From IMG/VR virus record IMGVR_UViG_3300046167_000573, positions 1 through 41,214 of that record: a DNA stretch of 41,214 nucleotides; one strand, written 5' to 3'. The notes under the pieces are model-generated. The model ran no database searches and was not told the origin of the DNA. It saw only the letters and a program-made list of their open reading frames with translations. Positions within the stretch are counted from its first letter, which is position 1, and each line of letters opens with the position of its first letter. Below are positions 1,802-41,214 of the stretch, in pieces. Origin of the DNA: a virus. A program made the translations under genes and the position numbers.

Positions 1802-2071
1802 TTACGTGTAAATAATGCGTTCAATCCTGATGCCAAGGTGCATATGAAGCCATTTCCTAAGCTCCTCGTCTGGTGTGCACTTGATGATTACGTCTCCGAA
1901 CTCACAGCCTTCTAGCGCAGCAGGGTTGGACAGCCATTGCTTGTTGCTGAACTTGAGGATACCTGCGCTCTTCCAGTTGTCGTAGTCGGAGTCTTCGGTT
2001 ATAATGCAGGTGGTTTTTCTCATGGTGTATATGCTGCCCCAACCTTTTGGCAGTTGCAAGCTTTTTGTCAC
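1802..2071 (-). CDS. Hypothetical protein
   Basis: An 89-codon frame from a GTG at 2071, or 73 residues from the ATG at 2023 (MRKTTCIITEDSDYDNW). I do not recognise it. It is small and charged with no membrane segment. No ribosome site is visible before either start. The window's right end stops at the base pair matching this gene's first codon in the inverted repeat. A 14-nt near-repeat (TTTGAGTGGGTTAC / TTTGAGTAGGTTAC) flanks the gap between it and the methyltransferase. Confidence 0.5.
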   Translation of the reverse strand: MTKSLQLPKGWGSIYTMRKTTCIITEDSDYDNWKSAGILKFSNKQWLSNPAALEGCEFGDVIIKCTPDEELRKWLHMHLGIRIERIIYT

Positions 2072-2239
2072 ATATTCTACGCATAACTTGTGACATTGTA
2101 CTATAGTCGTACATTCTGGCTATGTGCCGACCCCTAAGGTAATGCCCACGGTGCGATCAACTCACCGTTCCCCTGTGCTCAGGTGGATAACCGTCATTGC
2201 TTCCGCTACGCAGTTGCAAGATAGGATATAGGACTAAAA

Positions 2240-2315
2240 TGGGTGCGGGGGTCGGCTCTGCCTCGACGACCTTCTGGTCATGAGCCAGATGCTCTACTGA
2301 CTGAGCTACCCCGCA
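2240..2315 (-). tRNA. tRNA-like gene, anticodon CAT, with abnormal T-loop
   Basis: Seventy-six nt fold with standard lengths: acceptor TGCGGGG/CCCCGCA (7 bp), T8-A9, D-stem GCTC/GAGC, anticodon arm TCTGG-CTCATGA-CCAGA with CAT at 34-36, 5-nt variable loop, T-arm of 17 nt, C73 and an encoded CCA. The T-arm is GTCGA-GGCAGAG-CCGAC: the TTCRA signature and the 53-61 pair are lost, and G18 of the D-loop is A. The anticodon stem lacks the GGG/CCC of initiators, so Met-elongator or Ile2(CAU) would be expected. It may be a decayed or divergent tRNA. A promoter ends about 20 nt upstream. Confidence 0.6.
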
Positions 2316-2336
2316 AGATTAAAAAGAACTGCCTAG

Positions 2337-2355
2337 AGTATATCTTATGTGTCAA
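2337..2355 (-). promoter_or_regulatory. Promoter for the tRNA-like gene
   Basis: TTGACA (2355-2350), 7 nt, TATACT (2342-2337), pointing at the tRNA-like gene. The identical element is present in the right repeat at 40978-40996. Confidence 0.55.
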
Positions 2356-2396
2356 GTTTTGGGCGAATCGTGATACCTAAGCGGCTCTCCCGCCCA

Positions 2397-2415
2397 TTGA
2401 CAGATGGTTTATGAT
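2397..2415 (+). promoter_or_regulatory. Promoter of small gene 2422-2601
   Basis: TTGACA (2397-2402), 7 nt, TATGAT (2410-2415), then 6 nt to the ATG at 2422. The fixed 6-nt gap matches the HNH promoter at 1316-1334 and that at 33168-33186, and implies a leaderless mRNA. It is divergent from the tRNA promoter. Confidence 0.55.
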
Positions 2416-2421
2416 AGAAAT

Positions 2422-2601
2422 ATGCGGTATAACAATGGCGAGGGGACAATTGGTCACGATGACGACAAGTATCGTGAGAACTTTGATGATGCTGTCAAAT
2501 TGAAGGACGGGCAGCGTCCAGACTACACTGGGCGGGAAGTACCCAAAGACCAGCTTCCAGTCGGAATGCGCACACGAATCGTATACGGAGGGAAGAAATG
2601 A
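2422..2601 (+). CDS. Small hypothetical protein (left copy)
   Basis: 59 residues starting MRYNNGEG, hydrophilic and rich in Asp/Lys/Arg; not recognised. I chose the ATG at 2422 over an in-frame ATG at 2404 because the latter lies inside the promoter spacer. The stop overlaps the start of the next gene (ATGA at 2598). Near-identical to the gene at 40732-40911 (one Asp/Asn difference seen). Confidence 0.6.
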   Translation: MRYNNGEGTIGHDDDKYRENFDDAVKLKDGQRPDYTGREVPKDQLPVGMRTRIVYGGKK

Positions 2602-2822
2602 TAGCAGAAGACCAAGAAGAATTCGTCGAGAAGGTTCGTGGCGTAATTGGAGAGCACTTCCATTGCTTCGCGTTTGCCGTTCTGGATGACGAGGGGAATC
2701 TGCATTACGAATACACTAACCCGCACATAGGTAGAATGCTCTTTGCTGACAGCCTAGAGGACATGCACACGGAGACGGGCATCGAGGAGTGGGTATGGGA
2801 AGAGGAGGATGACGATGAGTAA
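2598..2822 (+). CDS. Small acidic hypothetical protein (left copy)
   Basis: 74 residues with an acidic C-terminus (EEWVWEEEDDDE); no known domain recognised. It overlaps both neighbours by a few bases, typical of translational coupling. Its 3' GAGGAGGATGACG provides the ribosome site for the small terminase. Identical in protein sequence to 40511-40735. Confidence 0.65.
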   Translation: MIAEDQEEFVEKVRGVIGEHFHCFAFAVLDDEGNLHYEYTNPHIGRMLFADSLEDMHTETGIEEWVWEEEDDDE

Positions 2823-3352
2823 GGAATTGGCCCTAGAAACTCAGAACTATGTCGCCAAAGCCCTGAAGGTCGCTCAGGAGAATGCCAACCATAATCGCGC
2901 ATGGTGTCACCGTGAGCCTGAACACTGGTGTAAGGTCGCACAGCACATCCTCCAGAAGCCAACATCGGCATATAGTTTTATCAAGTCTGGTGAATGCACG
3001 AAGAACGTATATTACGACATCCAGACGGAGCTGTTTGCTGATCCAGAATCTCAGCTAATCCGAAATGCGTGGGCATCCGAGATTGCGGCTATTCAGTTCC
3101 AAGGCATTGACACCTTTCGGGAATCTCAGGCTAGATATTCAGATGCAGTTCACAGTGGGGAAGTTGCCATCGACGGTAACGAGCTGTTCAAGCAAGCGAA
3201 GGCTTTGCAGGGGTTCAACGACATTCATGGAAAGCTGACGGGAACCAACATTCAGAAGCACTGTTGTTGAGCACAAGACTACGCTAGACGAAGCCGAGGA
3301 GTATGCTCGTAAGATGCTAAGTGACATCCAAGAGGCAGAGATTGTAGACTAA
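2815..3352 (+). pseudogene. Frameshifted copy of the small terminase subunit
   Basis: The first 140 or so codons match the intact gene at 39982-40518. One extra base near 3262 (CAGAAGCACTGTTG against CAGAAGATTGTAG) shifts the frame to an early TGA at 3268-3270, so the copy ends ...KLTGTNIQKHCC. The remaining bases still encode VVEHKTTLDEAEEYARKML in the shifted frame up to the TAA at 3350-3352, and the large terminase start (ATG 3352) follows for 21 bases before homology stops. It is either a decayed duplicate or a strain-chimera product. Confidence 0.75.
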
Positions 3353-3372
3353 TGAAGTTCACTCAGCACCCA

Positions 3373-4993: not shown

Positions 4994-5054
4994 CTCCAAC
5001 CTCCGTACCGTCTTACCTGTCAAAGCAATTAAACACTAAACAAAGGAAAACAAA

Positions 5055-5270
5055 ATGAAAAATCCAGATGGAACCACACTAACCATTCCTTCGAACGTAA
5101 AGACCATGGATGTGCACGTCACTGGCAACCTGATTGAGTTAGTCTCGATTGAACCCTACATGAAATGGAACGCTAACACCACATGCAGCGTTATGGAGTT
5201 GAAGAGATACGCCAAAGGAAAGCTAGGATTCCAGCAAACAACTAAGGATAAATGGCGCTGGAGTCGATAA
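5055..5270 (+). CDS. Hypothetical protein
   Basis: 71 residues, starts MKNPDGTTLTIPSN, ends in a basic region (TTKDKWRWSR). No family recognised. Preceded by AAACACTAAACAAAGGAAAA, a leader repeated word for word before the gene at 5372, so the two share translation or transcription signals. Confidence 0.55.
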   Translation: MKNPDGTTLTIPSNVKTMDVHVTGNLIELVSIEPYMKWNANTTCSVMELKRYAKGKLGFQQTTKDKWRWSR

Positions 5271-5291
5271 CCCGACGAAACGCCACTCACC

Positions 5292-5318
5292 AGCCTGTAT
5301 CTCGCGATACGGGCTTTT
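5292..5318 (+). terminator. Terminator, repeat unit 1
   Basis: AGCCTGTATC, TCGC loop, GATACGGGCT then TTT. Near-copy of 5648-5674; each is followed by TTGAGGTGAACGGG. Confidence 0.6.
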
Positions 5319-5337
5319 GAGGTGAACGGGGTACACT
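5317..5337 (+). promoter_or_regulatory. Possible promoter after terminator, unit 1
   Basis: TTGAGG, 9 nt, TACACT, then a leader and ATG 5372. The block TTTTGAGGTGAACGGG recurs at 5671-5686 in the same place after a terminator. The spacer is longer than the 7 nt of the strong promoters, so this is tentative. Confidence 0.3.
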
Positions 5338-5371
5338 AGCCTCACATAAACACTAAACAAAGGAAAACAAA

Positions 5372-5626
5372 ATGAAAATCGACCTAACATGGACAGCCGG
5401 CAGCCTATTCACCACCTTTCTCGTCAACAGCGAGGAAGGGCGAGTAGCATACAAGCAAATCATTGATGTTTGCGGCAGCCCAAAAGTGCTAAATCAGCAT
5501 AGAGACTCTACCATCTATCAACTCAAGCAAGCAGGCTATAAGGTCCGCAAATCGACGGCGAAAGTTAGCAAGCTAGAGGACTTCACAAGCGAAGATTTGG
5601 CCCTACTGGATAGCCTAGGCGTTTAG
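5372..5626 (+). CDS. Hypothetical protein
   Basis: 84 residues. The C-terminal half (DSTIYQLKQAGYKVRKSTAKVSKLEDFTSEDLALLDSLGV) looks like a small helical DNA-binding or regulatory protein; the N-terminus is hydrophobic (LFTTFLV). No family assigned. AAGGAAAA 6 nt before the ATG is the probable ribosome site. Single-gene unit between two repeated terminators. Confidence 0.55.
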   Translation: MKIDLTWTAGSLFTTFLVNSEEGRVAYKQIIDVCGSPKVLNQHRDSTIYQLKQAGYKVRKSTAKVSKLEDFTSEDLALLDSLGV

Positions 5627-5647
5627 CTTTAAATATAGCACTTCTTC

Positions 5648-5674
5648 AGCCTGTGTAGCGATACACGGGCTTTT
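5648..5674 (+). terminator. Terminator, repeat unit 2
   Basis: AGCCTGTGTA, GCGA loop, TACACGGGCT then TTT; near-copy of the terminator at 5292-5318. Confidence 0.6.
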
Positions 5675-5692
5675 GAGGTGAACGGGTAGACT
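5673..5692 (+). promoter_or_regulatory. Possible promoter after terminator, unit 2
   Basis: TTGAGG, 8 nt, TAGACT, in the same place after a terminator as the element at 5317-5337. Tentative for the same reason: the spacer exceeds 7 nt. Confidence 0.3.
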
Positions 5693-11705: not shown

Positions 11706-13385
11706 TTGCAAGAAGGGCTCGGTGTCTCATTCAAGGAGATGCTACCCAAGGCACGTGAAATCTGCGGCATCGTGACAATCGCACCCGTCACAGTGAAGAA
11801 GGAGAAGCCAAAGACCCCCAAGGGACGCGGTAAGTCGATCAAAGGCACTCCAGCTTTTGAATACCTTACACAAGATCGCCAGCTATGCTCTGACATCCTA
11901 GAGAAATACAAGGTCGGATACACTCCAATGAACACGGAGAGCAACAAGCACGGCTGGATGATTCCATACATCGACACTGACGGCGACCTGGTTCACACCA
12001 AGACCACTGGTATCGAGAAGAACGCCAAGGGCAAGAAGGAGATCACTGGAACCAAACCACACTCGACTCTCTGGGGCTGGTGGAATGTTGATTCAAACAC
12101 TCGCAAAATCATTATCACCGAGGGTGAAGTGGATGCAATGTCCTGCGCTCAGATCACCAGCAAGTATCCATCGCTGTCGCTTCCAAGTGGTTGTGCTGAC
12201 ATGAAGTGGATTGACCACGACTGGGATCAACTCGCACAGTTTGAAACCATCTACCTTGCAATGGATATGGATGATGCTGGAGAGATTGCAGCTAAGACTA
12301 TTTCCGACAAGCTTGGCAAGGCACGTTGCCGCCGAGTAAAGATTGGTAAGAACTGCAATGACGTGAATGAGTTGCTTTGCTCTGGTGGAGGGACTCCAGC
12401 ATACCTAGAAGGGCTTCTGTCACGCGCCAAGACCTTCGACCCCCCTAGCATTCTGGGAGCCTCTGACGGCATTGAGGACGCCATCCGCGAGAACGAGGAA
12501 CGTCTGGAGTCAATCAAGGTTAAGAACTTCGTATTCCCCGACATGGACTTCAAGCTTATCGACGCTGACACTGGAATCCTTACGGGGCAAAGCGGATCAG
12601 GGAAGACCGACTTGGCAAACCTCATCATGCTAAACGAGATGCAGCACGGGCAAGTGGTTTGCATCGTTGCAGCCGACACCCCAGCGAATGACCTCCGTAT
12701 CCTTAGCGCATGGCAAATCTTCGGGCATAGTCCAGATGCACATGAAATCCGCTTGGCCTGTGAAGCAATGGAGGGAAAGCTGTTCTTCATTGATGCCGTG
12801 AATCACCGCATGGGTGGCGACGAACTTCTCAAGACAATGGAGTATGCCACACAACGATATGGAGTGACGCGATTCTTGATTGATAATCTCTTTGAGGTTG
12901 ATGACATCAAAAAGGATGACTACAACAAGCAGGATCAGTTCGTTCGTGACCTTGACAAGTTCGACAAGACACACAGGACAAACTCAATGCTTGTAGCACA
13001 CGCCTTGATGGGAGATGACCACGCCACCAAGAAGCCAACACTCCGCGACATTGAAGGATCGAAGGGCATGACCAAACCAATTCAGTATGCAATTTCAATC
13101 TTCCGCAATCGCGTGAAGGAGAATCCCGCTGAATTTGAGAACGGAGATCAGACACCTCAGAAGATTGAGAATCTCATCACTGGCTCAGATGCGTACTTCA
13201 ATGTGTTCAAGTGCCGCAATGGATTCCGAAAAGAATTAAGTCAAGGGCTTGAGTTTGATGTAAGCTCTCGTAGATTCAGGACACCATACGGGAGATTTAA
13301 GTCTCCACTTGAGGTTAGCATGAACCAAGAGAATATCACACTCACTGAACTTGAAGACCAAGACACATCCGAAGTTCCTTTTTAA
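11706..13385 (+). CDS. Primase-helicase (TOPRIM plus DnaB/T7 gp4-like helicase)
   Basis: 559 codons counting from a TTG; the true start is the upstream fragment at 11486. TOPRIM: IIITEGEVDAM (about 135-145) and YLAMDMDDAGE (183-193), giving E and DxDD metal ligands. Linker, then RecA-like helicase with GILTGQSGSGKTD (Walker A at about 294-301), AADTPANDL, FLIDNLFEV (Walker B region, 390-398), MLVAHALMG and KGMTKPIQYAISIFRNR. Synthesises primers and unwinds DNA at the fork. The C-terminus ends DTSEVPF, similar to the acidic tip of the SSB-like protein. No DNA polymerase gene accompanies it, so host polymerase is probably used. Confidence 0.85.
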   Translation: MQEGLGVSFKEMLPKAREICGIVTIAPVTVKKEKPKTPKGRGKSIKGTPAFEYLTQDRQLCSDILEKYKVGYTPMNTESNKHGWMIPYIDTDGDLVHTKTTGIEKNAKGKKEITGTKPHSTLWGWWNVDSNTRKIIITEGEVDAMSCAQITSKYPSLSLPSGCADMKWIDHDWDQLAQFETIYLAMDMDDAGEIAAKTISDKLGKARCRRVKIGKNCNDVNELLCSGGGTPAYLEGLLSRAKTFDPPSILGASDGIEDAIRENEERLESIKVKNFVFPDMDFKLIDADTGILTGQSGSGKTDLANLIMLNEMQHGQVVCIVAADTPANDLRILSAWQIFGHSPDAHEIRLACEAMEGKLFFIDAVNHRMGGDELLKTMEYATQRYGVTRFLIDNLFEVDDIKKDDYNKQDQFVRDLDKFDKTHRTNSMLVAHALMGDDHATKKPTLRDIEGSKGMTKPIQYAISIFRNRVKENPAEFENGDQTPQKIENLITGSDAYFNVFKCRNGFRKELSQGLEFDVSSRRFRTPYGRFKSPLEVSMNQENITLTELEDQDTSEVPF

Positions 13386-13394
13386 CCAATAGCC

Positions 13395-13420
13395 TTGACA
13401 CCTACGCCAACATCAACCAA
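13395..13420 (+). repeat. Direct repeat, left flank of the methyltransferase cassette
   Basis: TTGACACCTACGCCAACATC followed by AACCAA; 24 of 26 bases identical to 15213-15238. It lies 10 nt after the primase stop and upstream of the cassette. TTGACA with 7 nt and CAACAT could be a weak promoter. Confidence 0.65.
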
Positions 13421-13439
13421 CAATACAAAACAAAATGAC

Positions 13440-13508
13440 ATGGCACACACAAAACAACAACTCAACACCTTCCACCTCTTCGCTGGGGCAGCCTATAATT
13501 ATGAATAA
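13440..13508 (+). pseudogene. Remnant of C5 methyltransferase 5' end
   Basis: Twenty-two codons, MAHTKQQLNTFHLFAGAAYN, then YE and a stop. It matches MAYTTTKGLSTFHLFAGC at the true methyltransferase start (13999), including the SAM motif FAG. The endonuclease gene starts inside it. Nucleotides around 13435-13489 and 13994-14049 align at roughly 70 percent, so this is a duplicated, diverged gene start. Confidence 0.6.
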
Positions 13509-13989
13509 TTGCTCAAAATGCAAGAAATCTAAGGAAGCCTCGGAGTTTGGGGTAGACACTCGCAATAAAAGCGGTTTAAAGTCGGCATGTAAGGAGTGCG
13601 GCAGGGAGGCGGCTAAGGTTTCATACCAGAAGCACAAGGAGAAGCGGATCAAGCAGACCCGAAAATATTATGCGGAGAACAAGGATAGATACAACGCTAA
13701 CAGGAAATTGAAGAGAGCGCAAACCAGAATAACCGAGGCATCTAGGAAATACGGAATACCAAAGTCGGAGGTGGAGAAGCTGTTAAGTAAAACCAAGTGC
13801 CAAATATGCTACTCCGACATTTCATTTGATAATAAGAATCAATTCCAGTGGCCTAATATAGATCACTGCCACTCAACTGGAAAAGTTAGGGGAGTTCTCT
13901 GCGGCTACTGTAACAACATGCTAGGAAAAGCCAAAGATGACATTGAAACTCTAGAATCAGCAATCTCATATCTATTAATCAACCGATAA
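13501..13989 (+). CDS. Endonuclease VII-like HNH nuclease
   Basis: 162 residues from ATG 13501 (MNNCSKCKKSKEASEFG). N-terminal zinc ribbon CSKC..CKEC, a long basic helix, then CQICYSD..IDHCHSTGKVRGVLCGYCNNMLGKAKDD, the classical recombination endonuclease VII signature. A longer frame from 13435 exists, but its first 22 codons are another frame of the duplicated methyltransferase start, so 13501 is preferred. In a homing context it would cut the methyltransferase start region; T4 endonuclease VII resolves Holliday junctions, which is the alternative role. Confidence 0.8.
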   Translation: MNNCSKCKKSKEASEFGVDTRNKSGLKSACKECGREAAKVSYQKHKEKRIKQTRKYYAENKDRYNANRKLKRAQTRITEASRKYGIPKSEVEKLLSKTKCQICYSDISFDNKNQFQWPNIDHCHSTGKVRGVLCGYCNNMLGKAKDDIETLESAISYLLINR

Positions 13990-13993
13990 TCTA

Positions 13994-14773
13994 ATGGCAT
14001 GGCATACACTACAACAAAAGGACTCAGCACATTTCATTTATTCGCGGGGTGTGGGGGAGGAATCTTGGCTGACATCTTACTTGGACACAATCCGATTGGA
14101 GCGTGTGAAATCGAACCCTACCCCAGAAACGTCTTGCTCGCACGACAAGCAGATAGGACACTTGCCCAAGTTCCCCATCTGGGACGACGTGGCTACCCTC
14201 GACGGAAATCCCTGGAGAGGAACAGTTGACGTTCTTTGTGGAGGATTTCCTTGCACCGATCTGTCCTCGGCAAGAACAAATAACAACGTCAACGGGGCAC
14301 AGCGAGGACTTGATGGGGAAAAGTCGGGACTGTGGTCTGAAATGGCTAGAGTCGCTAAAGAAATGCAACCTTCGTTTATCTTTATCGAAAACTCCCCAAA
14401 TCTTAGAAGAAAAGGACTCTCAAGAGTTCTTAACGACATTAGGAACATGGGGTATTATGCAAGATGGTGTGTGTTGGGCAGCAAAGACATTGGAGCCGAT
14501 CATCACCGAAAGCGAATGTGGATACTTGCCTACGCCAACAAGCCACAACTCCAAGGAGGGTGCTTATCCAGCAGAGTTTACACGGAAAACGCCAACCTTA
14601 TCGGCTCAAGTAGGAGGAAAGATCAATCCTCAGTGGAACGAGTTGCGAATGGGGTTTCCACTGGATTGGACAAAAATTGGGGAAAGAGGCTTAAGGCAAT
14701 CGGAAACGCGCAAGATCCATTTGTGGCTGCAACGGCATTCTCAATAATGGCAAAAGGCTTGACATGGAACTAG
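13994..14773 (+). CDS. C5 cytosine methyltransferase, main part
   Basis: Homology runs from about 14156. LCGGFPCTDLSSA is motif IV with the catalytic Cys; FIFIENSPNL is motif VI (ENV-like); GADHHRKRMWILAYAN is motif VIII; RLKAIGNAQDPFVAATAF is motif X. Joined to the N-terminal fragment the enzyme is about 257 residues, usual for small phage C5 enzymes with a short recognition domain. It methylates cytosine C5 at an unknown site. Flanked by endonuclease genes on both sides, and its C-terminal half is also open in a second frame. Confidence 0.82.
   Translation: MAWHTLQQKDSAHFIYSRGVGEESWLTSYLDTIRLERVKSNPTPETSCSHDKQIGHLPKFPIWDDVATLDGNPWRGTVDVLCGGFPCTDLSSARTNNNVNGAQRGLDGEKSGLWSEMARVAKEMQPSFIFIENSPNLRRKGLSRVLNDIRNMGYYARWCVLGSKDIGADHHRKRMWILAYANKPQLQGGCLSSRVYTENANLIGSSRRKDQSSVERVANGVSTGLDKNWGKRLKAIGNAQDPFVAATAFSIMAKGLTWN
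13999..14229 (+). CDS. C5 cytosine methyltransferase, N-terminal fragment (frameshifted)
   Basis: From ATG 13999: TFHLFAGCGGGILADILLG is motif I, and CEIEPYPRNVLLARQAD follows as in C5 enzymes. The homology leaves this frame after the GAT at 14152-14154 and continues as GHLPKFPIWDDV in the frame of 13994-14773, one base further on (extra A at about 14155). Remaining codons to 14229 are out of frame. Confidence 0.75.
   Translation: MAYTTTKGLSTFHLFAGCGGGILADILLGHNPIGACEIEPYPRNVLLARQADRTLAQVPHLGRRGYPRRKSLERNS
14313..14747 (+). CDS. Overprinted frame inside the C5 methyltransferase
   Basis: 144 codons from ATG 14313 (MGKSRDCGLKWLESLKK), with GTWGIMQDGVCWAAKTLEP, CGYLPTPTSHNSKEG, VGGKINPQWNELRMGFPLDW and LWLQRHSQ at the end. 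These LPTPT / NPxW..MGFPxxWT / WLxxHS elements resemble, from memory, a recurring phage protein family. The same bases encode AYAN and the motif X block of the methyltransferase. Either frame could be the ancestral one; the alternative is a conserved shadow with no product. Confidence 0.4.
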   Translation: MGKSRDCGLKWLESLKKCNLRLSLSKTPQILEEKDSQEFLTTLGTWGIMQDGVCWAAKTLEPIITESECGYLPTPTSHNSKEGAYPAEFTRKTPTLSAQVGGKINPQWNELRMGFPLDWTKIGERGLRQSETRKIHLWLQRHSQ

Positions 14774-14793
14774 TGGTATCACATAATTCACGC

Positions 14794-15207
14794 ATGGATA
14801 AAAGAATAAATGAAAACGCAGAAGAAATGTATCAAATGTATCAGCGAGGGAGCAGTCTCGCTGGTGTAGGAAGCTTCTACGGGAAGTCTAGGCAGTCCGT
14901 GTATGGATTATTCGCAGCGAGGGGGTGGAAGATGAGGAAAAGAAAGGGTCTCGACAAAAAGACATTTAACGGATATAGCTACACGCTCCGCAACAACGGA
15001 TACTACGGAAAGACCAAGGGGGTTCGCAGCTTGATGCACCGTGACGTATGGGAACATTTCAACGGAGAGATACCGCCGAATCACGACATACACCACATAG
15101 ATCATGACAAGTCCAACAACGACATATCCAACCTGGAGATATACACGAAAAGTGAACACGCCAGAAAATTCGCAACTGGGCGAAACCAATTCTCTCAGAA
15201 GGACTAA
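14794..15207 (+). CDS. HNH homing endonuclease-like protein
   Basis: 137 residues from ATG 14794. The N-terminus has a helix-turn-helix-like segment (YQRGSSLAGVGSFYGKSRQSVYGLF); the C-terminus is a compact HNH: LMHRDVWEHFNGEIPPNHDIHHIDHDKSNNDISNLEIYTKSEHA, typical of intron/intergenic homing endonucleases. CATAAT lies 6 nt before the ATG. An earlier in-frame ATG (14764) overlaps the methyltransferase 3' end. It sits directly behind the methyltransferase gene. Confidence 0.8.
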   Translation: MDKRINENAEEMYQMYQRGSSLAGVGSFYGKSRQSVYGLFAARGWKMRKRKGLDKKTFNGYSYTLRNNGYYGKTKGVRSLMHRDVWEHFNGEIPPNHDIHHIDHDKSNNDISNLEIYTKSEHARKFATGRNQFSQKD

Positions 15208-15212
15208 TTTAG

Positions 15213-15238
15213 TTGACACCCACACCAACATCAACCAA
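15213..15238 (+). repeat. Direct repeat, right flank of the methyltransferase cassette
   Basis: TTGACACCCACACCAACATC followed by AACCAA; partner of 13395-13420. It forms the leader of the gene at 15248. A weaker relative (TTGACACCACTACAACAAG) precedes the gene at 17722. Confidence 0.65.
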
Positions 15239-15247
15239 AACAAAGAC

Positions 15248-15511
15248 ATGAAATACGAAACAGAACTAAACGAAATCAAGAAAGACCTCGAAGCCTACAT
15301 GGATCTGACCACCAATGAGTTTGACTGCATTGTGGACCGCATCGACGAACTGATGGAATCACAGCAGTACATGAATGACGCGGAATACGACATGCTGGAC
15401 GAGTGCTACGACCTGTCGCAAGGGGCCGAGAGCTACTTCCAAGCCATTGCCGATGCCGAACATCAGGACGAGCTGAATGACCAACGCAAATACATCAACG
15501 CAACACGATAA
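15248..15511 (+). CDS. Acidic coiled-coil hypothetical protein
   Basis: 87 residues from ATG 15248 (MKYETELNEIKKDLEAYMDL), strongly acidic and helical with repeated Tyr/Asp (DAEYDMLDECYDLSQ). Not recognised. First gene after the cassette; its leader is the right direct repeat. Confidence 0.55.
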   Translation: MKYETELNEIKKDLEAYMDLTTNEFDCIVDRIDELMESQQYMNDAEYDMLDECYDLSQGAESYFQAIADAEHQDELNDQRKYINATR

Positions 15512-16149: not shown

Positions 16150-17307
16150 ATGCTAACAGAACAACAACAACAAATCCTAGACCTATACCTTGAGCTTGGC
16201 AACAAGACAGCCGTAGCAGATAAGCTTGGCTTGAACGAGTCAACCATTCGGGCGCACATCCAGCGCATCGAACGTAAAGGTGAAGCACCTTGGATGAGTG
16301 ATGCTCCGACACCAGACCACATGGCACTTGCCAAGACCACAGTGCAGTATGGCCCTGATGGTGAAGTGCAGCGAGAGTGGAAGCGTCTTATCCCGCACGC
16401 AGAAGCAATGACGGACTTCGTTGATTCCCTCTGTGATCGCGTACAAGGGAAGATCAAGATTGCTAAGAGTCCTAAGGTTAAGCGTCAGAGCGAAGACATC
16501 CTCGCTGAAATCTGCTGCTTTGACGCGCACATTGGAATGTATGCCGAGGCTGGTGAAACCAACGGGCAGAACTACGACTCCGACATTGCCATCAAGCGCA
16601 TCCATAACACCACAGATGCACTTCTATGTCGCATGAATAATCCAGAACACATCGTTGTGACATTCGGTGGCGACATGCTCCACTCTGATACTCGCTCAAA
16701 TAAGACTGAAATGAGCGGCAATGTGCTGGATGTGGACTCTAGGTATCACATGGTCGTCGAAAAGGCCGTGACGGCTTGTTATGACGCTGTATACATGGCT
16801 TCTGAGGTTGCTAAGAATGTCACTGTTGTAGTCCTTGAGGGCAATCACTCATGGCACTCCGAGGTGTGGCTCGCTCAAGTCCTGAAGGCAGCATATTCCA
16901 AGTGTGATCGCGTGAACATTGTCATGCAGCGTTCAGCCCGTAAGCACATGGTATGGGGCGACAATCTGCTTGTATGGACTCACGGAGACTCCGTTGCTAT
17001 GAACAAGTGGCAGGGAATCATCTCTACCGAGTTTGCGCAGCTATGGGGGCAGACTAAGTGGAGACACTTGAAGATGGGTCATATCCACCACAAGAACGCT
17101 CGGACAGCTAAGAGCATTGTGACATCCGACATGAACGGTGGATGGGTTGAGAACCACGGACTGCTTGTTGAGTATCTTCCAGCTTTGACAGCAACGGATG
17201 CTTGGCACTCAATGAAGGGATTCATCGGGAGTCAGCAAGCTATGACGGGCTTTACCTATCACAAGACTCACGGCTTAATTGGAAGACTGTATGAGCCAGC
17301 ACTGTAA
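16150..17307 (+). CDS. Metallophosphoesterase with N-terminal HTH
   Basis: 385 residues. The N-terminus is a LuxR/sigma-like HTH (QILDLYLELGNKTAVADKLGLNESTIRAHI). The catalytic domain has all calcineurin-like motifs: DAHIG (125-129), GGDMLHSD (173-180), EGNHSWH (230-236), THGD (277-280) and GHIHHK (310-315). Similar proteins are common in phage replication regions and are thought to act as nucleases or phosphatases; the substrate is unknown. It follows the small-gene run and is the last large rightward gene. Confidence 0.8.
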   Translation: MLTEQQQQILDLYLELGNKTAVADKLGLNESTIRAHIQRIERKGEAPWMSDAPTPDHMALAKTTVQYGPDGEVQREWKRLIPHAEAMTDFVDSLCDRVQGKIKIAKSPKVKRQSEDILAEICCFDAHIGMYAEAGETNGQNYDSDIAIKRIHNTTDALLCRMNNPEHIVVTFGGDMLHSDTRSNKTEMSGNVLDVDSRYHMVVEKAVTACYDAVYMASEVAKNVTVVVLEGNHSWHSEVWLAQVLKAAYSKCDRVNIVMQRSARKHMVWGDNLLVWTHGDSVAMNKWQGIISTEFAQLWGQTKWRHLKMGHIHHKNARTAKSIVTSDMNGGWVENHGLLVEYLPALTATDAWHSMKGFIGSQQAMTGFTYHKTHGLIGRLYEPAL

Positions 17308-17643: not shown

Positions 17644-17721
17644 AACGAGCCATTGACGTGCTTCGGAAGTTCTATTATTCTTTATTTGACACCACTACAA
17701 CAAGCCCACATAAATAACAAC

Positions 17722-17916
17722 ATGAAGGCAACACTAACATTCGACGAAGAGGAAACCAACATCTTGCGCATGTCCATTAACGGGCCAGAGGCTCACTACA
17801 CCATCGGTGCAATCGACCAGCAATGCCGAGACTGGGTGAAGTATTCAGACTTGTCAGACGAAGAAGTGGCGAGACTTGAGCTTATTCGTGACATGGCAAG
17901 CGACGTTAGATTTTAA
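17722..17916 (+). CDS. Hypothetical acidic protein
   Basis: 64 residues from ATG 17722: MKATLTFDEEETNILRMSIN, RDWVKYSDLSDEEVARLELIRDM. The pattern (short strand, then acidic helices) recurs in small phage proteins of unknown role. Preceded by TTGACACCACTACAACAAG, a relative of the 26-bp repeats. Last rightward gene. Confidence 0.55.
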   Translation: MKATLTFDEEETNILRMSINGPEAHYTIGAIDQQCRDWVKYSDLSDEEVARLELIRDMASDVRF

Positions 17917-22991: not shown

Positions 22992-23015
22992 AATTTGTTG
23001 TGTGCTAGTGGTTTA

Positions 23016-23034
23016 AGTATATATTACGTGTCAA
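23016..23034 (-). promoter_or_regulatory. Promoter of the internal-protein operon
   Basis: TTGACA (23034-23029), CGTAATA, TATACT (23021-23016), then 24 nt to ATG 22991. TTGACACGTAAT is shared with the promoter at 33168-33186. Confidence 0.6.
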
Positions 23035-23064
23035 GTTAGTAGGTTTCTGGGTAGGTGTATAGTT

Positions 23065-33161: not shown

Positions 33162-33167
33162 ACCTAG

Positions 33168-33186
33168 ATTATAAATTACGTGTCAA
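33168..33186 (-). promoter_or_regulatory. Promoter of tail operon
   Basis: TTGACA (33186-33181), CGTAATT, TATAAT (33173-33168), then CTAGGT and ATG 33161. Start of transcription would fall on or next to the ATG: leaderless mRNA. It follows the capsid terminator directly. Confidence 0.7.
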
Positions 33187-33190
33187 GTTA

Positions 33191-38320: not shown

Positions 38321-39982
38321 TTAATATCCTCCCGATTTGACCAAGACCCCTAGCTTGCCCCCTGCGTAGTGTTCTGGCCCATCGCCACCATTCGCTGTTC
38401 GCAAATAGCGTAGAGTGTCAATAAAGTCCTTCAGTGCCTCATCACGCTTGCCCTGTGCGGCATAGTTGATGATAGCATAGATTAGATTGCCGCAGTCCTC
38501 ATGGATGAATATACGAGGGCTATTAGCTGCATCTAACTCAGCATTGACGTTATAGTAGAACCAATCATCTAGTGCTGTGAGTCCTTGCTCCTCCTTGATG
38601 CCTAGCGATGGTACGTAGTGAAAGTCGTGTTCAGAGAACTGAGCAAATAGGTCTGCATTGTCAGCATTCTCACTGGCAAAGAAGCGAGAGTCACCAACTC
38701 GTTCAAAGACGCTGATGTTAAGTTCCTCCTCAATCTCAGTGAATAGCTTGCAGTAGCCCTCGACGTTGTACCCTAGCTTCTTAGATGCAGGGCCAAACTT
38801 CCAATTAGGATCACCGAACTCTGCCCAAGGGCCATAAGTCTTTCGGTCGGGCCATTCTCTGCGAATGTAAACCTTAGTATCTGAGCCAACCCCAGTGACT
38901 CCAGCCCATAGACTAGTGTAGTTACGAGCACCAGCAGGGTCAACCACTTGGTAGCAAGTGAACTTAGCTTTGTCTGATAAACACGGAAAGTCTTTATCTT
39001 CAAGGACATGGACACTCTGACTGAACAATGGGAACAGAGATGTCATTGACTTCACTGGAATCCCATAGGCGCGAGTGCGAATCTCATCCTTTGGACTGTG
39101 CCTAAGCTCCTTGGCGATACGATCATAGCCACCGAAGGGATTGAACTCTGAGTGGAAATATACAATGCCAGCGTCCTTCTCTGGACTGTACTGAGTTACT
39201 GGAACTTCCTCTCCGTCTAGTAGTGGTGCTTCTCTCGTCTTGCGAGTCTCCACTCCCTTAAGGAACTCAGCTACGAATGGCGTATATCCATCAATAGGCG
39301 TGAAGGTTAAGACCATCTTAGCATCGCGTGTAGCAAGACGGAAGCGCATGGTTCGGATCAAGTCACCATCCTCTAAGTATTCATCGGGCCACAGACCAAT
39401 GTTGTGCCATGTGGGAGTCTTAGAACCAAGCTCAAGACCCTCAAACTTGCTTCGATTGGCAATGAACTGGCTGTAGGTATGGAACAGCACTTGAGAACCA
39501 TTAGGCAGAATGAAGGACTGACCAGTGAAGCCGTTCTTGACAGTGTAGTTCAGATACTCAAGCACACCCTTGGTCTTCACCTTATACTCTGGTGGCAAGT
39601 AGCGATATACAGCCGATTGCTGCGTTCTGATAGAGGCATCAGCGTCCTGCGCGAAGCATACGATGATTGAGTTCGGATTCTCTAGTGCTGCCTTCACGAC
39701 GCTCCTAGCCCCATATTCAGTTTTTGAACTACGATTGCCACCAAAAATCATCAGTGTATCGTAGTGCTCAAGCATTGCGTCAGCATATACCCAACCTTCA
39801 AGAGACACACCGAAGTTGAGAGGATCAGCGTCAGCATTAGCCACAGCATCCTCATGCAGTCTGTGCATCTCTACAAGTGCCTTGAGTCCTTCTGGCTTAG
39901 AAGAACCATCCTCATTGAAGCAGAGCTTCTTGATGTCCTCTGCTGAAGGAGGCTTTAGAATTGGGTGCTGAGTGAACTTCAT
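38321..39982 (-). CDS. terL: Terminase large subunit
   Basis: 553 residues. ATPase: GGNRSSKT Walker A (81-88), IGLWPDE Walker B (195-201), LTFTPI coupling motif (225-230). Nuclease domain: VVDPAGARN with a metal Asp, GDSRFFASE, and KDFIDTLRYL near the C-terminus. Packages DNA into proheads. ATG overlaps the small terminase stop. Its first 21 bases are also present at 3352-3372 in the inverted repeat. Confidence 0.9.
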   Translation of the reverse strand: MKFTQHPILKPPSAEDIKKLCFNEDGSSKPEGLKALVEMHRLHEDAVANADADPLNFGVSLEGWVYADAMLEHYDTLMIFGGNRSSKTEYGARSVVKAALENPNSIIVCFAQDADASIRTQQSAVYRYLPPEYKVKTKGVLEYLNYTVKNGFTGQSFILPNGSQVLFHTYSQFIANRSKFEGLELGSKTPTWHNIGLWPDEYLEDGDLIRTMRFRLATRDAKMVLTFTPIDGYTPFVAEFLKGVETRKTREAPLLDGEEVPVTQYSPEKDAGIVYFHSEFNPFGGYDRIAKELRHSPKDEIRTRAYGIPVKSMTSLFPLFSQSVHVLEDKDFPCLSDKAKFTCYQVVDPAGARNYTSLWAGVTGVGSDTKVYIRREWPDRKTYGPWAEFGDPNWKFGPASKKLGYNVEGYCKLFTEIEEELNISVFERVGDSRFFASENADNADLFAQFSEHDFHYVPSLGIKEEQGLTALDDWFYYNVNAELDAANSPRIFIHEDCGNLIYAIINYAAQGKRDEALKDFIDTLRYLRTANGGDGPEHYAGGKLGVLVKSGGY

Positions 39983-40518
39983 TAGTCTACAATCTCTGCC
40001 TCTTGGATGTCACTTAGCATCTTACGAGCATACTCCTCGGCTTCGTCTAGCGTAGTCTTGTGCTCAACTACAATCTTCTGCGTGTTGTTACCAGTCAGCT
40101 TTCCATGAATGTCGTTGAACCCCTGCAAAGCCTTCGCTTGCTTGAACAGCTCGTTACCGTCGATGGCAACTTCCCCACTGTGAACTGCATCTGAATATCT
40201 AGCCTGAGATTCCCGAAAGGTGTCAATGCCTTGGAACTGAATAGCCGCAATCTCGGATGCCCACGCATTTCGGATTAGCTGAGATTCTGGATCAGCAAAC
40301 AGCTCCGTCTGGATGTCGTAATATACGTTCTTCGTGCATTCACCAGACTTGATAAAACTATATGCCGAGGTTGGCTTCTGGAGGATGTGCTGTGCGACCT
40401 TACACCAGTGTTCAGGCTCACGGTGACACCATGCGCGATTATGGTTGGCATTCTCCTGAGCGACCTTCAGGGCTTTGGCGACATAGTTCTGAGTTTCTAG
40501 GGCCAATTCCTTACTCAT
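39982..40518 (-). CDS. terS: Terminase small subunit
   Basis: 178 residues from ATG 40518, chosen over ATG 40524 because GGAGG is 6 nt upstream of 40518. Helical: LALETQNYVAKALKVAQENA, central AYSFIKSGECTKNVYYD, C-terminal VVEHKTTLDEAEEYARKMLS, the short motif before the acidic end common in phage small terminases. Recognises the packaging site. A frameshifted second copy lies at 2815-3352. Confidence 0.75.
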   Translation of the reverse strand: MSKELALETQNYVAKALKVAQENANHNRAWCHREPEHWCKVAQHILQKPTSAYSFIKSGECTKNVYYDIQTELFADPESQLIRNAWASEIAAIQFQGIDTFRESQARYSDAVHSGEVAIDGNELFKQAKALQGFNDIHGKLTGNNTQKIVVEHKTTLDEAEEYARKMLSDIQEAEIVD

Positions 40519-40735
40519 CGTCATCCTCCTCTTCCCATACCCACTCCTCGATGCCCGTCTCCGTGTGCATGTCCTCTAGGCTGTCAGCAAAGAGCATTCT
40601 ACCTATGTGCGGGTTAGTGTATTCGTAATGCAGATTCCCCTCGTCATCCAGAACGGCAAACGCGAAGCAATGGAAGTGCTCTCCAATTACGCCACGAACC
40701 TTCTCGACGAATTCTTCTTGGTCTTCTGCTATCAT
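40511..40735 (-). CDS. Small acidic hypothetical protein (right copy)
   Basis: 74 residues, same protein as 2598-2822: MIAEDQEEFVEKVRGVIGEH start and EEEDDDE end. Overlaps small terminase and the upstream gene. Both copies intact, so selection is plausible. Function unknown. Confidence 0.65.
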   Translation of the reverse strand: MIAEDQEEFVEKVRGVIGEHFHCFAFAVLDDEGNLHYEYTNPHIGRMLFADSLEDMHTETGIEEWVWEEEDDDE

Positions 40736-40911
40736 TTCTTCCCTCCGTATACGATTCGTGTGCGCATTCCGACTGGAAGCTGGTCTTTGGGTACTTCCCG
40801 CCCAGTGTAGTCTGGACGCTGCCCGTTCTTCAGCTTGACAGCATCATCAAAGTTCTCACGATACTTGTCGTCATCGTGACCAATTGTCCCCTCGCCATTG
40901 TTATACCGCAT
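40732..40911 (-). CDS. Small hypothetical protein (right copy)
   Basis: 59 residues from ATG 40911, 6 nt after a promoter; same as 2422-2601 save one Asn for Asp. First gene of the terminase operon. Confidence 0.6.
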   Translation of the reverse strand: MRYNNGEGTIGHDDDKYRENFDDAVKLKNGQRPDYTGREVPKDQLPVGMRTRIVYGGKK

Positions 40912-40917
40912 ATTTCT

Positions 40918-40936
40918 ATCATAAACCATCTGTCAA
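40918..40936 (-). promoter_or_regulatory. Promoter of the terminase/late operon
   Basis: TTGACA (40936-40931), 7 nt, TATGAT (40923-40918), ATG 6 nt on. Copy of 2397-2415. It could drive the head genes down to the capsid terminator. Confidence 0.55.
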
Positions 40937-40977
40937 TGGGCGGGAGAGCCGCTTAGGTATCACGATTCGCCCAAAGC

Positions 40978-40996
40978 TTGACACATAAGATATACT
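40978..40996 (+). promoter_or_regulatory. Promoter upstream of the tRNA remnant
   Basis: TTGACA (40978-40983), CATAAGA, TATACT (40991-40996). Kept intact although the tRNA downstream is deleted. Confidence 0.5.
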
Positions 40997-41017
40997 CTAG
41001 GCAGTTCTTTTTAATCT

Positions 41018-41045
41018 TGCGGGGCAGAGCCGACCCCCGCACCCA
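41018..41045 (+). pseudogene. tRNA remnant (acceptor stem plus part of T-arm)
   Basis: TGCGGGG, then CAGAGCCGAC, CCCCGCA and CCCA: the left tRNA-like gene lacking 48 nt from position 8 into the T-loop (D, anticodon and variable regions). Two-base GG repeats at the break point fit a deletion by slippage. The remainder is a hairpin. Confidence 0.65.
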
Positions 41046-41214
41046 TTTTAGTCCTATATCCTATCTTGCAACTGCGTAGCGGAAGCAATGACGGTTATCC
41101 ACCTGAGCACAGGGGAACGGTGAGTTGATCGCACCGTGGGCATTGCTTTAGGGGTCGGCACATAGCCAGAATGTGCGACTATAGTACAATGTCACAAGTT
41201 TCGCATGGAATATG

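Follow-up and report, generated by a model that had tools for sequence, protein, structure and literature searches.

Two endonuclease genes enclose a DNA methyltransferase (MTase) gene in a viral record of 41,214 bases, hereafter the window, and short direct repeats lie on either side of all three. This raises the question of whether the three genes form a single mobile cassette that recombination between the repeats inserts or excises, as the initial annotation had proposed, or whether the nucleases reached the MTase in another way. The genes, all on the plus strand, had been named correctly, as confirmed by Pfam matches: an endonuclease VII (EndoVII) family gene of 162 amino acids, a putative homing endonuclease (13501–13989; PF02945, 1.4e-19; PHROG endonuclease VII), a C5 MTase (PF00145, E 4e-23) and an HNH_3 endonuclease of 147 amino acids (14764–15207; PF13392, 1.2e-17; PHROG HNH endonuclease), which overlaps the MTase stop. 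In EndoVII, the catalytic residues D121, H122, H124 and N138 and the zinc-binding residues C100, C103, C134 and C137 are invariant. Upstream lies a resident gene for a Toprim primase/KaiC-type helicase (11706–13385, plus strand; Pfam Toprim_2, 2.6e-11; KaiC-type ATPase, 1e-6), and downstream, behind the right repeat, an 87-amino-acid gene (15248–15511, plus strand).

The 26-bp repeats (13395–13420 and 15213–15238, plus strand) are real and identical at 24 of 26 positions. Their 20-base core has just two occurrences when up to three mismatches are allowed, against a chance expectation of 0.01; the only other exact match, in locus L019, sits in a Thr-Pro-rich coding repeat and was dismissed as chance. 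Both repeats are positioned like leaders, in the gap between the stop codon of one gene and the start codon of the gene that follows. The left one precedes the MTase; the right one follows the stop codon of the original MTase without a gap and is the leader of the 15248 gene, as had been recognised. A third, looser leader in the same style, with TTGACACC, an A/C-rich stretch and then ACATG, stands before another gene, at 17686 (17686–17724, plus strand). The 26-bp repeats serve the MTase and the next gene as leaders and have no part in mobility. What does vary between related loci lies inside the MTase and is not bounded by the repeats. The proposal of mobility is supported, as set out below, but for neither EndoVII, MTase and HNH as one unit nor a mechanism that acts through the repeats.

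The left repeat also scores as a sigma-70-like promoter, but shuffled sequence gives such matches equally often. Elsewhere in the window, a motif of TTGACA, 7 nt and TATA(A/C)T occurs on the minus strand at 1311–1337, 2332–2358, 23011–23037 and 33163–33189, in several cases just upstream of a minus-strand start codon, and also on the plus strand at 40978; it looks like a promoter with unusually short spacing. The early region holds an exact 32-bp leader repeat (5030–5061 and 5347–5378) and a 40-nt hairpin-like repeat of 85% identity (5291–5330 and 5647–5686). The last 1.25 kb of the window (39962–41214) is an inverted copy of 2071–3372, with 94.8% identity over 1302 aligned columns, and represents either genuine inverted repeats or an artefact of assembly.

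L029, the closest relative found, likewise has the MTase directly behind the primase. There the MTase is an uninterrupted gene of 246 amino acids, accompanied by neither nuclease and by no repeat, and we therefore read the MTase as the resident gene. No relative of the 15248 gene was found in phages or viral contigs, the viral contigs yielded no close relative of the primase, and relatives of the gene at 16150 have that gene alone in common with the window.

The window MTase has two starts. Behind the left repeat, a cut-off second start (ATG 13440, MAHTKQQLNTFHLFAGA) reaches a stop codon as EndoVII begins at 13501, and the MTase begins anew after EndoVII at ATG 13999 (MAYTTTKGLSTFHLFAGCGGG). 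Each copy carries the start of an overlapping frame. In the remnant of the original 5′ end (13435–13490, plus strand), this frame opens at ATG 13435 (MTWHT), with which the EndoVII gene is in frame; in the re-supplied, respelled 5′ end (13994–14049, plus strand), it opens at ATG 13994 (MAWHT), just ahead of the MTase start (MAYTTTKGLSTFHLFAG). Remnant and restored start both encode FHLFAG while differing at 5 of 18 nucleotides, and alignments confirmed their relationship, with a score of 51 compared with 31 at the next best unrelated place and a mean of 16 (s.d. 3.5). EndoVII is inserted in the MTase 5′ end at the motif I codons (FAG|GGG), with the remnant of the old start on its left and the re-supplied start on its right. 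The insert measures 562 bp between equivalent codons, and its borders are MTase motif I sequence.

Compared with L029, the window is a mosaic in which the remnant is L029-like and the restored first codons are not. Nucleotide identity to L029 is about 80% over the resident MTase core through catalytic motif IV (GGFPC; 14050–14262, plus strand) and then about 42–68% from just behind the catalytic PC motif, over the remaining two-thirds of the gene (14262–14773, plus strand), which ends in SIMAKGLTWN*. A one-base frameshift near 14150–14165 (plus strand) places the motif I part of the gene in one frame and motif IV onward in the next; it was either acquired later or is a sequencing error. Three frameshifts were considered, of which the apparent second and third proved to be the overlapping frame, leaving this one.

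At the other end of the MTase, a remnant of the original C-terminus, ILSEGLI* (15189–15212, plus strand), overlaps the 3′ end of the HNH gene, and its codons stop exactly where the right repeat begins. It matches the L029 C-terminus, (N)ILSEGLT*, and 3.48 million translated residues contain ILSEGL just three times, once at the window site and twice at an MTase C-terminus. The nucleases are separate insertions at opposite ends of the MTase. On balance we favour the view that the HNH gene, as the second of these, replaced the MTase 3′ end in a mirror image of EndoVII, a case that comprises one locus and eight codons.

The arrangement at the 5′ end recurs in other viral loci. A scan for MTase relatives yielded 80 loci, in two of which (L052 and L054) the EndoVII reading frame begins with MNELALFAG, the MTase's own start, and is followed by a complete MTase. 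A scan for EndoVII with a query of this type returned L104–L141, and in each of these the nuclease is followed by an MTase start at a distance of between a few bases and a few tens of bases. L104 and L105 repeat the contigs of L052 and L054; L104 was dropped, leaving 37 invaded loci besides the window (L105–L141) with EndoVII directly before the MTase. The window EndoVII is 36% identical to that of L104–L141 and therefore belongs to a separate lineage. A third EndoVII lineage, in L179, occupies the same site in another MTase family (HRLRTLHLFA|, then MPRLRTLHLFAGAGGG), and the same codon insertion site recurs in three MTase families. The insert has a constant length, 418 bp in 11 loci with a remnant, and the remnant always ends at the same place; in most loci with a long EndoVII the inserts measure 561–580 bp, close to the 562 bp of the window. 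Such a nuclease is missing beside most MTases of this family, and a scan of genome contigs found one distant Streptomyces locus.

The 5′ ends of these genes reveal a consistent pattern of respelling. Uninvaded (empty) alleles read ATGAATGAGTTGGCTCTTTTCGCAGGCGCTGGTGGAGG; remnants follow the empty-allele sequence to about GGCGCTGG and then run into the nuclease, and restored copies read AATGAACTCGCTCTCTTTGCAGGAGCAGGTGGAGG. Counted by locus (several loci are near-identical contigs and hence not independent, with 12 distinct remnant cores and 20 distinct restored ones), a 21-nt core of the remnant exactly equals an empty allele in 26 of 30 cases, whereas that of the restored copy never does (0/37). 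Within a locus, remnant and restored cores differ at 5–8 of the 21 nucleotides, yet the seven encoded residues are identical in 30 of 30. The 60 nt past the core show no excess divergence, with an identity to empty alleles of 0.81 compared with 0.80 among empty alleles. The old left half of the site is present in all 30 remnants and in 43 of 53 empty alleles, and absent from all 37 restored copies. Left and right half-sites are joined in 36 of 64 empty loci and in none of the 37 invaded ones, so a nuclease with a recognition site across the insertion point would be expected to find that site in empty alleles only. No remnant is present in 7 of the 37 invaded loci.

Two MTases, in L041 (4846–5624) and L044 (4815–5708), have the respelled start with neither nuclease nor remnant. 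They are either source alleles or alleles that have since lost the nuclease. The respelling may consequently have arisen in such alleles and travelled by co-conversion, rather than in a dedicated element.

The restored start concerns two frames rather than one. In a survey of the MTase genes of L024–L141, and of 13994–14773 in the window, 96 of 97 genes had a +1 frame that stays open for more than 90% of the MTase length, compared with 0.8% of shuffles that preserve protein and codon use. This frame starts within a few bases of the MTase start; part of it carries the PHROG label DNA methyltransferase, and Pfam gave no match to it. Empty alleles encode MSWLFSQAL and NELALFAGA within the same short stretch. 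Restored copies encode the two starts in succession, ATGTCATGGTTAATC... (MSWLISKAL) and then NELALFAGA. The start of the overlapping frame is re-supplied in 37 of 37 invaded loci, and both starts are also found in the window and in L029. Respelling one frame alters the other, and the element therefore appears to have had to supply both starts. This suggests that the element unpacks two overlapping starts into two successive ones and that the second frame is a real gene.

Several observations point to mobility. Presence and absence at one conserved site are represented by 37 invaded and 64 empty loci. In the same-flank pair L116 (invaded) and L068 (empty), 994 nt on the left match at 73% and 477 nt on the right at 90%, on either side of a 418-bp insert; further such invaded and empty pairs are L110 with L090, and L108 and L124 with L066. 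The invaded MTases are not one clade in a tree of 89 MTases (13 label changes; AU p 0.0009), a quick tree with several long branches. The MTase is intact in 28 of the 32 restored copies that are not cut by a contig end, compared with 59 of 65 empty alleles.

Taken together, we consider it very probable that an EndoVII-type homing element occupies the resident MTase at FAG|xGG and that its insert consists of the nuclease and a respelled start for both frames. Sequence comparison shows the insertion point, a remnant equal to the empty alleles, a restored protein start, its synonymous respelling and the patchy spread among MTases; cleavage and homing are the steps that we infer. The nuclease would recognise DNA across the insertion point and cut uninvaded MTase genes of co-infecting phages, and repair would then copy in the nuclease together with the new start. 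The invaded gene would keep working, while the remnant and the respelled copy would offer no substrate, leaving the element immune. In the window, where the MTase is frameshifted, the rescue fails or has decayed, unless the shift is a sequencing error.

The arrangement could also have arisen passively, if a nuclease gene lay ahead of a divergent MTase allele and recombination happened by chance to join it, within the conserved motif I, to a resident start; the respelling would then be allelic divergence and not immunity. Phage genes are mosaic, and L041 and L044 do carry the respelled start without a nuclease, as expected of such an origin. However, the respelling is limited to the first codons, and empty-type sequence resumes just past them. 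The insert length, in 11 loci with a remnant, and the position at which the remnant ends are constant, and the same codon site is used in three MTase families. We regard a passive origin as unlikely. Movement of all three genes as one cassette is clearly less probable still. It draws on the near-identity of the repeats and their position around the three genes, but the EndoVII insert is delimited within the MTase by borders of its own, L029 keeps the MTase without nucleases or repeats, the right repeat adjoins the stop codon of the original MTase, a similar leader stands at a third place, and there is no recombinase gene between the repeats.

Marginally lower again in our estimate stands a functional pairing, in which nucleases and MTase would form a restriction-modification-like or defence unit. 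The close spacing of adjacent nuclease and MTase genes would suit such a unit; most MTases of the family nevertheless lack the nuclease, EndoVII relatives also lie beside ThyX and ssb genes, and the remnants and the respelling would be left unexplained. Introns and inteins both typically insert in conserved motifs, and the MTase parts might in principle be joined by RNA or protein splicing. Since the MTase start behind the nuclease is complete, a stop codon closes the left remnant, and no Rfam intron match was found up to an E value of 1, we attach almost no weight to splicing.

The homing reading also raises the question of whether EndoVII elements replace the ends of other genes. Among 121 further EndoVII loci, 11 had flanks above the 99% level set by mismatched flank pairs, against an expectation of 1.2, although some of these are MTase loci listed again or are compositional. 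Four stand out by inspection, in genes that we take, from their motifs, to be capsid-like, zinc-motif, ASCH-like and family B DNA polymerase genes. In L221, the last 29 codons of the capsid-like gene are duplicated around EndoVII (2304–2390 and 2968–3054; 28 of 29 residues, 77% of nucleotides), a convincing 3′-end version of the arrangement, with the C-terminus replaced. A duplicated, differently spelled start is likewise convincing in L176, where HRWSCPNC and HRWTCPNC copies of the zinc-motif gene flank EndoVII (2682 and 3269). Further replaced starts, also respelled, are probable in L174 (2697 and 3315; MKALTIKQTWA, then MRALSIKQPYA..., ASCH-like gene) and in L211 (2442 and 2970; RTHWVMDY, then RTHWVMDFETL, the first exonuclease motif of the polymerase), again around EndoVII. 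L147, in which tandem paralogues surround the EndoVII gene, was not counted as a duplicated end, nor were L170, L187, L226 and L229, which were weak or compositional. EndoVII relatives also adjoin a ThyX gene and an ssb gene; in the Vibrio phage Phriendly (L186, 2252–2632), the EndoVII gene overlaps the thyX start, and a search for a replaced start there found none. We lean towards the view that phages host a broad home-and-rescue class, in which an EndoVII, perhaps also an HNH, nuclease breaks a conserved gene end and carries a respelled replacement.

Comparable elements are known from fungal mitochondria, where mobile ORFs with a carboxy-terminal duplication occur in Allomyces atp6 and in Glomus atp6, atp9, cox2 and nad3 (PMC3630166). 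As in the phage elements, an endonuclease ORF at a gene end supplies a foreign copy of that end with largely synonymous changes, and the native end, which matches uninvaded relatives, is left behind (PMC3630166). The fungal nucleases are LAGLIDADG or GIY-YIG enzymes at 3′ ends in mitochondria (PMC3630166), whereas the elements described here have EndoVII enzymes at 5′ ends in phages, restore two overlapping frames and occupy many loci at one codon site. The EndoVII elements of the MTases replace the N-terminus; the C-terminus is replaced in L221 and perhaps by the window HNH. The MTase elements work like the fungal kind, and because the replaced end is the N-terminus and not the C-terminus, we do not file them as members of it.

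Among phage systems, F-CphI of cyanophage S-PM2 is also a free-standing homing endonuclease of the EndoVII family with a conserved gene as its target; it lies beside psbA, where a group I intron blocks self-cutting (collaborative homing) (PMC6083498). The window element, in contrast, has no intron, and protection would come from insertion and respelling. In the SegF/SegG system of phage T4, the nuclease lies beside, not inside, its target gene, and no duplicated gene end is known. SegF/SegG marker exclusion, cited in PMC2988022, resembles the present case in being intronless homing with co-conversion of the flanks. The free-standing endonucleases mobE, in nrdA of phage Aeh1, and mobA, in T4 gene 60, likewise lie in functionally critical parts of phage genes, but their insertion splits the protein into two reassembling chains (PMC2988022), whereas here the missing end is re-supplied. 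An HNH homing element, ShiLan, lies in conserved codons of an actinophage DNA methylase and is read through in frame; the available parts of the two papers describe neither a remnant nor a re-supplied end (PMC11855218, PMC9957025).

Literature searches of partial coverage gave no account of a phage element that replaces a gene end, the most specific of them returning the fungal paper alone, and a subscription paper could exist; gene-end-replacing homing elements in phages are apparently recurrent and undescribed. The signature of remnant, nuclease and respelled end makes them an easy search target. The restored double start, in turn, hints independently at a function for the frame that overlaps phage C5 MTases. 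If the proposed reading is correct, nature has in these elements an equivalent of engineered cleave-and-rescue gene drives: they break a conserved gene and bring with them an immune version of the part that is broken. They would account for nucleases that persist within a gene although no splicing takes place, and they would seed recurrent gene-end replacement in phages.
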